From assembly GCA_027077795.1 (NCBI GenBank), contig JALWTT010000009.1, forward strand, positions 1 through 64,000: 64,000 nt of DNA, written 5' to 3'. Below, piece after piece: positions 55,138 to 58,225 of the stretch; position 1 is the stretch's first letter; each line of letters starts with the position of its first letter. Made by a program: the position numbers and the translations under genes. Under the pieces are notes generated by a model. That model worked only from the letters and a program-made list of their open reading frames with translations, was not told the DNA's origin and made no database searches. The DNA comes from Thermotogaceae bacterium (lineage in GTDB: Bacteria > Thermotogota > Thermotogae > Thermotogales > Thermotogaceae).

Positions 55138-56820
55138 ATGAAGAGATACTTCTGGGTGCTTGCACTTTTAGTTTTGGCATTGCTTCTGTCTCTCACCAGC
55201 TGTAGCCAGCCACAGCCTTACGGAACTATCAAAGGGGTCCAGGAGATTTATACACTCGGGAGCACCGTTACTGTTGAGTGGTATACGGTTAACTACGAGA
55301 AAGCCAACCTTCCATATGAAATCGTCATAGATACACCTGATGGCAGCGAGATAACAGTTCCAGCTACTGAAGAAAGCTATTCTTTCGTCCCTGAGAAGGT
55401 TGGAAAGTACACCGTTTCCCTGTACGGAGGAGAGAAAGACAACAGAACTCTTCTTGACAGCGTCAATTTCTTCGTCACCAGTTTGGAATTCGTCGGGCCA
55501 AGCGACGGTGAAATCATAGGAGGGCCCACTTGGGACGGAACTGTAACGGTTTCTTGGAAGGAGCTGTCCGGTGCCCCAGTTGAATACCAGTACTCACTCG
55601 ATGGAGTAAATTGGACTGAAGTGGACTCAACAAGTGTGAAACTCATGAGTCTGCCAGACGGTAACTATACATTCTACCTAAAGATCAAAGGGATCGACAT
55701 GCCACCGCTCACAAGGAGTTTCAAGGTGGATACAACACCGCCTCAGCTTGATTTCATTGGTGGTAGTAGAGAGCATCAGTACCTTTGGAATGGAGATTTC
55801 GATCCAAATGGAAGATATGAGGAGTTTGAGTGGAGCTCTAACGAAGATTTGAGCTATCTGCTTGTCAGGTTCTATCTGTTTGACACAAAGCTGGGTATGA
55901 GGGTAGGTAGGATAAACCTAGTTGACAGCGATGGAGATGGAATTTACGATGATCTGGAAGTTCTTCCAATGGCTAGCAGCGCTGAGCACAAGTGGTATCA
56001 TATCGTCACCAATCCAAAATACTGGGTGATGATCATCTCTGACAAAGAGATGTACATTCCTGGATACGATGTCGATGAAACAGGAGCATCAACGTTTATA
56101 GGATGGACAAAGGTTGGATTTTCCATGTCTAGTGAGTACAAATTGTTCGTTGGTTTCGAAGCGTATGACAAAGTCATGAACTCAACTGATCCTTATTTGA
56201 CAGCATACCAGTTCGTTAACCTGAATGAGAGATATGAATTTTCAAATGAGCCAACGATAAAAATAGACGAAAATTCCGCAGAACTCGATCCGGAATCCAG
56301 CAAGTTGTACCTCGCCATAACGGCGAAAAACCTCAAGTCATACTTATCAAAAGAAGAGCACTACAGCAGCGAAACGGATAAGGACACGACCTTCTCTTCT
56401 GGGCTTCTTTACATGCAAATTCCGGTTGTTTACTCCACAAACCTGACGCTCTCAAATGTTGAGTGGAGCAACTTCTGGAAAGAGAAGAAGGAGCTCAACT
56501 ATTACAAGGTGGATGACAGCGCTTCTGTTGTCGAGTACACCGGCGGAGATGTTGTTTATCTGTACAAGGGATTCGTGAATGGAGAAGATGAATCAGAGCC
56601 CGTTGAAGATACGATTTTAGCTACTCTTGTCTTTGATATAAACGATTCTTCAAGTTCTGTAGCCAGCGCACAGATATGGTATGAAGGAGATTTCACCAAG
56701 TACCAAAACTTCAAGGATGTTCCAAACGTCATCATAACGGACAACCTTGGAAGACAAATAGACGGGGTGATTGTAGACAACACCACTGTTTTGGTTCCTC
56801 TTGAAGGGGGTGAGAAGTGA
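55138..56820 (+). CDS. surface lipoprotein with cohesin-like C-terminal domain
   Basis: ATG 55138 follows AAGGAGGTG. A signal peptide ends in the lipobox L19-T20-S21-C22, so the 560-residue protein should be lipid-anchored outside the cell. Beta-sandwich, Ig-like repeats follow (about 30-115, 116-200 ending FKVDTTPPQ). Next comes a domain with a Ca2+-loop DSDGDGIYDD (263-272). A C-terminal domain (about 372-540) has the strand order and Asn/Asp-rich spacing of cohesins (GLLYMQIPVVYSTNLTLSNVE, TILATLVFDIN, VIITDNLGRQI). The cohesin call is structural inference. Its stop shares one base with the dockerin protease gene, which supports a binding-partner role. Confidence 0.7.
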   Translation: MKRYFWVLALLVLALLLSLTSCSQPQPYGTIKGVQEIYTLGSTVTVEWYTVNYEKANLPYEIVIDTPDGSEITVPATEESYSFVPEKVGKYTVSLYGGEKDNRTLLDSVNFFVTSLEFVGPSDGEIIGGPTWDGTVTVSWKELSGAPVEYQYSLDGVNWTEVDSTSVKLMSLPDGNYTFYLKIKGIDMPPLTRSFKVDTTPPQLDFIGGSREHQYLWNGDFDPNGRYEEFEWSSNEDLSYLLVRFYLFDTKLGMRVGRINLVDSDGDGIYDDLEVLPMASSAEHKWYHIVTNPKYWVMIISDKEMYIPGYDVDETGASTFIGWTKVGFSMSSEYKLFVGFEAYDKVMNSTDPYLTAYQFVNLNERYEFSNEPTIKIDENSAELDPESSKLYLAITAKNLKSYLSKEEHYSSETDKDTTFSSGLLYMQIPVVYSTNLTLSNVEWSNFWKEKKELNYYKVDDSASVVEYTGGDVVYLYKGFVNGEDESEPVEDTILATLVFDINDSSSSVASAQIWYEGDFTKYQNFKDVPNVIITDNLGRQIDGVIVDNTTVLVPLEGGEK

Positions 56821-58196
56821 TGAAAAGGATCGTAGCAATTCTCCTGATCGCACTCGCGATATTCTCATTCGCATCTCTCAAAGATGAATGGATGAGAGGA
56901 GTCCAGAAGATAAACTCCATTCCAGGCCTGTCGTGGAGAGCAGGATATTTCAAAGGACTTGATAGGTACGAAGGGCTCGCCTCAAATCTTGACGAACTCT
57001 TCAAGAAATGGGCGGGAACAAGAGAACTTCCAAAGGAGATCAAAAACAGATTTATAAGGTTCTTAAAAACCTCAAAACTCACCAGCACAGATGATATGTT
57101 CATGGCCAGCAAGTTCCTTTACACGTATCAAGGAGAAGAGCTCCCTTCTTACTTCATACAAGTTCACACTCCCGTTAGAGATCAGGCGTATCACGGAACA
57201 TGCTGGGCCTTCTCAACAACGGCGGTAATGGAGAGTGCGTATCTCGTTCAAGTTCTTAAGGACAATGGGGAATCTTCTATCTCTCCCGTTGAGCTTCAAA
57301 AATCGGATGTTGATTTTTCAGAGCAATTTGTAGGGTATCACGATATAGATTGGGATCTTGCTCGTTATGAAGGTTACTATGTGATACAAGATTCAAATTA
57401 CGATGGGGGAGGGAATCCGTATTTTGCAACTTACAACCTCATCAGGTATGGCATACCAAGCGAAGATACGTTCCCGTACATCGGATACGATAAATCGCCA
57501 TGGATAAAATGGAATCCCAAAGGAGATTGGAAAAAGACTTTGGAATTTTCCAACAAAACGGCTGTAATTCTGAGCTATGACGATATGAAAGATGCTTTCA
57601 ACATGAGCTATGAGGGCTACATAAACACGATAAAAGAAGCTATAGAAAAATATGGAGCTCTGTCTGTTATGTACCAGATTCCAAGTGATTTTTACTACTA
57701 CATTTCAGGTGTTTACACACCTGCAACAGATACCACTGTTGGCGGACATGCCGTAACGCTTGTTGGGTGGTTAGATGTTGAGGCACTCAAAGAGCTAGGA
57801 TGGCTGGATGAAAGTGCAACTTCTTTGATATATAAGGATCCTTTCACAGGCAAAACAAACGAAGCGACGCTCTTTTGGGTCATAAAGAACTCCTGGGGCT
57901 CATCTTGGGGATGGGATGGATACTACGTGGTGCCGGCTATAACGAAGGAGCAGTATGAAAATGGTGAAGTTGCTAGGTGGCAAATAGAGTACTACTGGAT
58001 GTACGTACCGATAATTGGAGCACCCGAGTGGTCAAAAGCTGACTTCGACAACGATGGAGATGTGGATGAAGACGATTGGAACGCACTGAAAAGCGCACTT
58101 TGGAGCAATGATAAGAAATACGACCTGAACGGAGACGGAAAAGTGAACGGAAACGATCTGGAGATCTTCATGAGACTTTGGAACGCGAGTAAATAA
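56820..58196 (+). CDS. secreted papain-family (C1A) protease with C-terminal dockerin
   Basis: The 458-residue protein has a signal peptide (MKRIVAILLIALAIFSFAS) and a pro-region to about residue 110. The peptidase domain has Q122 and catalytic C128 in VRDQAYHGTCWAFST, H310 in VGGHAVTLVGW and N357 in IKNSWGSSWGWDGYY. A type I dockerin (407-458) carries two Ca2+ loops: D408-D410-D412-D414-D419 (DFDNDGDVDEDDW) and D435-N437-D439-N443-D446 (DLNGDGKVNGNDL). All catalytic and calcium positions are intact. The start is ATG 56820 after GGGGGTGAG; a GTG one codon earlier is less likely. An intrinsic terminator follows. Confidence 0.92.
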   Translation: MKRIVAILLIALAIFSFASLKDEWMRGVQKINSIPGLSWRAGYFKGLDRYEGLASNLDELFKKWAGTRELPKEIKNRFIRFLKTSKLTSTDDMFMASKFLYTYQGEELPSYFIQVHTPVRDQAYHGTCWAFSTTAVMESAYLVQVLKDNGESSISPVELQKSDVDFSEQFVGYHDIDWDLARYEGYYVIQDSNYDGGGNPYFATYNLIRYGIPSEDTFPYIGYDKSPWIKWNPKGDWKKTLEFSNKTAVILSYDDMKDAFNMSYEGYINTIKEAIEKYGALSVMYQIPSDFYYYISGVYTPATDTTVGGHAVTLVGWLDVEALKELGWLDESATSLIYKDPFTGKTNEATLFWVIKNSWGSSWGWDGYYVVPAITKEQYENGEVARWQIEYYWMYVPIIGAPEWSKADFDNDGDVDEDDWNALKSALWSNDKKYDLNGDGKVNGNDLEIFMRLWNASK

Positions 58197-58200
58197 CTCA

Positions 58201-58225
58201 AAAGCCCCCTCTTCGGGGGCTTTTT
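58201..58225 (+). terminator. intrinsic terminator of the lipoprotein-protease operon
   Basis: GCCCCC (58204-58209) pairs with GGGGGC (58215-58220) around TCTTC, with AAA before and TTTTT after, right behind the protease stop. Between 58226 and 58403 I see no gene or clear element. Confidence 0.9.

Follow-up and report, generated by a model that had tools for sequence, protein, structure and literature searches.

Two adjacent genes in the window, the 64,000-nucleotide stretch of DNA from a heat-loving Thermotogaceae bacterium analysed here, encode a lipoprotein and a secreted cysteine protease that ends in a dockerin. Cohesin-dockerin pairs are known mainly from multi-part complexes that degrade plant fibre. 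The locus therefore raises the question of whether the lipoprotein provides a cohesin for the dockerin and holds the protease at the cell envelope. The earlier note on this DNA had proposed such a minimal pair of one scaffold and one enzyme, and this remains the best-supported explanation, based on the similarity of orthologous lipoproteins to cohesins, the joint inheritance of the two genes, and the apparent replacement of a lipid anchor by the dockerin. We assign a probability of roughly three in four to the reading that the genes form a bicistronic cassette, in which a lipidated cohesin-like lipoprotein tethers the secreted protease to the envelope through its dockerin.

Organization of the locus and the dockerin-bearing protease

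The positions of both reading frames (Table 1) and their one-base overlap, at position 56,820 within the sequence TGATG, agree with those given in the earlier note. FeoA- and FeoB-like genes, assigned from sequence, are located upstream of the pair in the opposite orientation, and the lipoprotein and protease genes therefore constitute a two-gene unit. Contamination as the source of the pair was ruled out, because in two sister genomes from this genus the lipoprotein gene is likewise located beside feoA/feoB-like genes, in divergent orientation.

Table 1 Features of the lipoprotein-protease locus, in positions of the window
Feature	Position	Strand	Description
Cohesin-like lipoprotein gene, 560 aa	55138..56820	+	Signal peptide with lipobox LSLTSC; Ig-like/PKD/Y_Y_Y-type beta domains; middle conserved domain; C-terminal cohesin-like domain
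Cohesin-like domain, lipoprotein residues 372-552	56251..56793	+	Homologous to regions of orthologues that match PF00963
Secreted papain-family (C1A) protease gene, 458 aa, C-terminal dockerin	56820..58196	+	Plain signal peptide without Cys
Peptidase_C1 catalytic domain, protease residues 117-372	57168..57935	+	C128, H310, N357
Type I dockerin of the protease	58038..58172	+	Two 12-residue calcium loops, DFDNDGDVDEDD and DLNGDGKVNGND
Intrinsic-terminator-like hairpin	58200..58224	+	Closes the two-gene unit

The protease matches the Pfam profile Peptidase_C1 (2.4e-23, 83.8 bits, cut-off 20.7). The C1A triad described previously is intact, and its three residues are invariant among 26 orthologues, as is Q122, which corresponds by position to the glutamine of the oxyanion hole. 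Judged by the profile score above the cut-off and the Cys-His-Asn triad with the oxyanion glutamine, the protein is a papain-family C1A protease. Its signal peptide is followed by a pro-region, which in the family profile aligns to procathepsins, including pro-cathepsin H. The closest relatives with solved structures are of the cathepsin B and H types.

The C-terminal residues 407-451 match Dockerin_1 (PF00404; 4.9e-5, 23.9 bits, cut-off 22.9). The scores of orthologous dockerins reach 36.9 bits, and several are under the Pfam cut-off. Inspected by eye, both calcium loops of the window protease are canonical, with Asp or Asn at positions 1, 3, 5, 9, and 12 as in an F-hand. Together with the Pfam score, the two loops corroborate the complete type I dockerin recognized earlier. 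Loop 2 has a two-residue insertion in most orthologues (DISxPKDGxIDGxD), which makes it an unusual calcium loop; it is canonical in the window protease and its sister. The symmetrical dockerins of clostridia have a dual binding mode. Because the two loops of the window dockerin differ by eye at positions 10-11 (ED versus GN), a single binding mode would be likelier here than a dual one.

The lipoprotein and its C-terminal domain

Counted from the ATG at 55138, the lipidated cysteine of the lipoprotein would be Cys22, and the residues LTSC fit the pattern [LVI][ASTVI][GAS]C after the h-region of the signal peptide, in agreement with the lipid anchor postulated previously. All full-length orthologues that were examined have a lipobox, which was identified by regular expression or by visual inspection. 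In the orthologue from genome G028, it was missed by the regular expression and was seen by eye further inside the protein, because the start of that open reading frame is over-extended. The middle domain of the window lipoprotein contains a thrombospondin-3-like calcium motif (DSDGDGIYDDLEVLP, residues 264-278), which is retained in several orthologues.

No cohesin match was found anywhere in the window lipoprotein in searches of Pfam, including PF00963, and NCBIfam, and the HHalign probability of the window and sister sequences against cohesins was below 1%. When the phylum was searched with PF00963, the matches in G013, G081, and G043 included the lipoprotein whose gene immediately precedes that of the protease. 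Among ten lipoprotein orthologues scanned against Pfam, Cohesin was found at the C-terminus of four. The match in G013 (6.7e-7, 30 bits) is above the Pfam cut-off, and those in G081 (5.7e-4), G043 (1.1e-3), and G100 (0.012) are below it. Alignments that span the entire window domain show 28-34% identity to the domains from G081, G043, and G100; the G013 domain is much more divergent from the window domain (12%).

HHalign comparison with solved cohesins resulted in probabilities of 38% for the whole lipoprotein family and 68% for a compact subgroup, which changed to 58% and 70%, respectively, when Thermotogota cohesins were added. Control comparisons with reversed cohesins and with the lipoproteins' own Ig-like domains did not exceed 2%, and were 1% or less against the whole family. 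The probabilities of 38-70% are moderate. A search of the PDB with the family profile returned few matches, which included type II cohesins with a marginal E of 0.02 and an Ig-like tail protein with a similar score. AlphaFold models of the window C-terminus, for which there was no usable alignment, were too poor (pLDDT 41 from the single sequence and 36 with the sister), and a structure search of the PDB with the pLDDT 41 model, too poor to inform, returned no match.

Judged through its orthologues, the C-terminal domain of the lipoprotein is probably a cohesin. The cohesin-like character attributed to it in the earlier note, which had suggested comparing it with HMMs, thus finds support in the orthologues, with matches at the same place and one of them above the cut-off, and in the HHalign comparisons of the family, but not in the window sequence alone. 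It is conceivable that the C-terminus is a different Ig-like or jelly-roll domain, and that the lipoprotein works specifically with the protease in another way, for example as an inhibitor, a chaperone, or a factor for substrate capture or maturation. The dockerin-like EF-hand pair would then bind the lipoprotein, or only calcium for stability. The unrecognized window domain and the score of the Ig-like tail protein are consistent with this possibility, whereas the Cohesin matches in the four orthologues and the preference of HHalign for cohesins over the Ig-like control argue against it.

Joint inheritance and apparent exchange of anchors

The pair is not unique to the bacterium of the window. 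The two genes are adjacent in 25 of 103 Thermotogota genomes (26 pairs), the lipoprotein gene is always first, and the spacing ranges from an overlap to 15 bases. The recurrence in 25 genomes indicates that the arrangement is far beyond chance. Contig breaks occur in the genomes with only one gene of the pair (G009, G018, G031, G099, and G100). Genome G029 contains a decayed cassette (L131, G029:C16), in which the lipoprotein is split into three frames and no protease is left, and G027 contains two pairs in tandem, which represent one joint duplication.

In the phylogenetic trees of both the lipoprotein and the protease, ten pairs (G006, G019, G025, G028, G030, G032, G043, G080, G081, and G100) form a group that has full support and is separate from the rest. 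The position of the window pair is poorly resolved and is not the same in the two trees. Genus g27 includes both types of the pair, one in three species and the other in at least four, and both genes switch together. In this genus, the site of the pair is the same for both types, adjacent to leuS and to a pyrophosphatase-like gene. The joint change of type at a single position indicates that the two genes travel as a cassette. When viral contigs were searched for further relatives, one distant match was found.

A search of the rest of the window's genome, which is 96% complete, for other dockerins, as proposed in the earlier note, found only that of the protease. The genome also encodes a single domain of the cohesin-like family of the lipoprotein. 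Dockerin matches across the phylum are mostly one per genome, and are located on this C1A protease. With one cohesin and one enzyme, the system is a tether and not a multi-enzyme scaffold, and its previous description as a proteolytic counterpart of a cellulosome was overstated. A true cellulosome, with a scaffoldin containing several cohesins and a CBM, and several enzymes with dockerins, was ruled out by the one dockerin and one cohesin-like domain in the genome.

Pairing of a dockerin with a cohesin is not readable from sequence, and further cohesin proteins exist in other Thermotogota. The dockerin could have a different cohesin partner, located elsewhere in the same cell or on a neighbouring one, in which case the lipoprotein could be a separate surface protein in a shared operon. 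However, Pfam detects no cohesin in the window's genome, in which the lipoprotein's cohesin-like domain is the only one of its family, and the two genes are inherited, duplicated, and lost jointly, which makes this arrangement highly unlikely. Surface proteins of Thermotogota with a cohesin adjoining a dockerin-like loop in one chain (LLGDFNKDKIVNV and similar; L091, L094, L097, and L101 from G006, G021, and G045) are further non-cellulosomal cohesin-dockerin proteins.

Among the 27 dockerin-bearing proteases, a lipobox is present in the second G027 copy and missing from the other 26. The family also includes seven proteases that have no dockerin, and six of them possess a lipobox of their own (two in G065 and one each in G008, G011, G013, and G102). 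The remaining one, G102 C170, is a distant paralogue that is built differently. None of the seven is encoded behind a cohesin lipoprotein gene. The dockerin and the cohesin lipoprotein thus appear to replace, in trans, the protease's own lipid anchor. The evidence is strong but circumstantial, and is not proof, because the cases are few and related to one another. Co-inheritance would suit any obligate partner of the protease, but the exchange of lipobox for dockerin indicates anchoring specifically, and a lipoprotein of another fold with a different role is improbable.

Two proteins from G065, L132 (G065:C40:1188-3914) and L133 (G065:C49:4158-6914), contain a lipobox, a C1A papain domain, and a full clostripain domain (Peptidase_C11, 1.4e-87), and thus combine two cysteine protease families within one lipoprotein chain. 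The dockerin-less C1A proteases with a lipobox L139, L140, L141, and L134 all follow another large lipoprotein-like protein, which ends with WPMFxxDxYHxG and is perhaps their beta-propeller partner.

Proposed mechanism and comparison with known systems

In the tethering mechanism, the exported lipoprotein would receive a lipid on its N-terminal cysteine and would display its single C-terminal cohesin-like domain. The protease would be exported by Sec as a zymogen composed of the signal peptide, cathepsin-type pro-region, C1A domain, and dockerin. The dockerin is expected to bind the cohesin in a 1:1 ratio, probably with calcium. Because there is a likely cohesin socket and a matching dockerin plug, the protease is probably positioned on the cell envelope, where its capture would prevent it from diffusing away. 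The complex may be exposed to the medium, to the toga space, or to the periplasm, and the tethered enzyme would probably break down protein for peptide uptake or trim envelope proteins.

A variant compatible with the main reading places the tether in the periplasm or at the inner membrane, where the protease would maintain the quality of envelope proteins or process proteins of the toga instead of digesting protein outside the cell. Lipoproteins can be retained in the inner membrane, and processing roles have been proposed for cellulosomal proteases (PMC12484212). However, there is no Asp after the lipid cysteine of the window protein (CSQPQ), although the +2 rule may not apply in Thermotogota, and the presence of the pair in 25 of 103 genomes is more consistent with an optional role in nutrition than with a housekeeping role. 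The periplasmic variant is therefore considered rather unlikely. We slightly favour the broader view that a one-to-one cohesin-dockerin tether evolved across the phylum apart from cellulosomes, with the dockerin and cohesin lipoprotein substituting in trans for the lipid anchor of the protease.

The best reading of the cassette is a non-cellulosomal cohesin-dockerin system with a protease as cargo and no carbohydrate enzyme involved. With a single socket, a single plug, and no cargo other than a protease, the conserved Thermotogota pair is a simple system in which to study the origin and purpose of the joint. The idea of dockerins as removable anchors can be examined in the clean natural experiment formed by enzymes that have their own lipobox and enzymes that instead have a dockerin and a lipoprotein encoded separately. 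If the interpretation is correct, the cohesin-dockerin joint would be present here in a minimal form, and the two domains would constitute a natural, orthogonal binding pair that is probably heat-stable. Such cassettes may yield heat-stable, specific binding pairs for engineering.

Cohesins and dockerins reportedly also occur outside cellulose degraders, with few modules per genome, according to a survey by Peer et al. from 2009 (cited in PMC8542988 and PMC2930009). The Thermotogota pair resembles those modules in both respects, and differs in that its genes are adjacent and conserved as a cassette, which combines a C1A protease with a lipoprotein as its probable anchor. In the literature that was searched, no description of cohesin-dockerin pairs native to Thermotogota was found. 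The window protease shares the triad and pro-region similarity with the cathepsin B and H types of papain family C1A, but it is bacterial and has a C-terminal dockerin added. Dockerin-bearing proteases have been described from cellulosome producers. In Clostridium thermocellum, an S8 protease with the double dockerin dDoc_0689 is thought to be surface-anchored via a scaffoldin cohesin (Chen et al. 2024, reviewed in PMC12484212). As in the tether proposed here, a protease would be kept at the surface through contact between a dockerin and an anchored cohesin, but the clostridial enzyme is a serine protease with two dockerins in a large cellulosome system. Ruminococcus flavefaciens RflaF_05439 has cysteine-peptidase-like modules and an X-dockerin that binds ScaE (PMC3573020). 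It is likewise a putative cysteine peptidase attached to the surface by a dockerin-cohesin contact; however, it has an NlpC/P60 fold, the sortase-anchored ScaE is common to the cellulosome, and the genome encodes more than 220 dockerins. The cellulosome-like complex of the cloacimonadotal 'Ca. Stygibacter' includes secreted S8 and C25 peptidases with C-terminal dockerins (PMC8542988), comparable to the secreted protease described here, but they belong to a system of several enzymes and a large multi-cohesin scaffoldin with CBMs.
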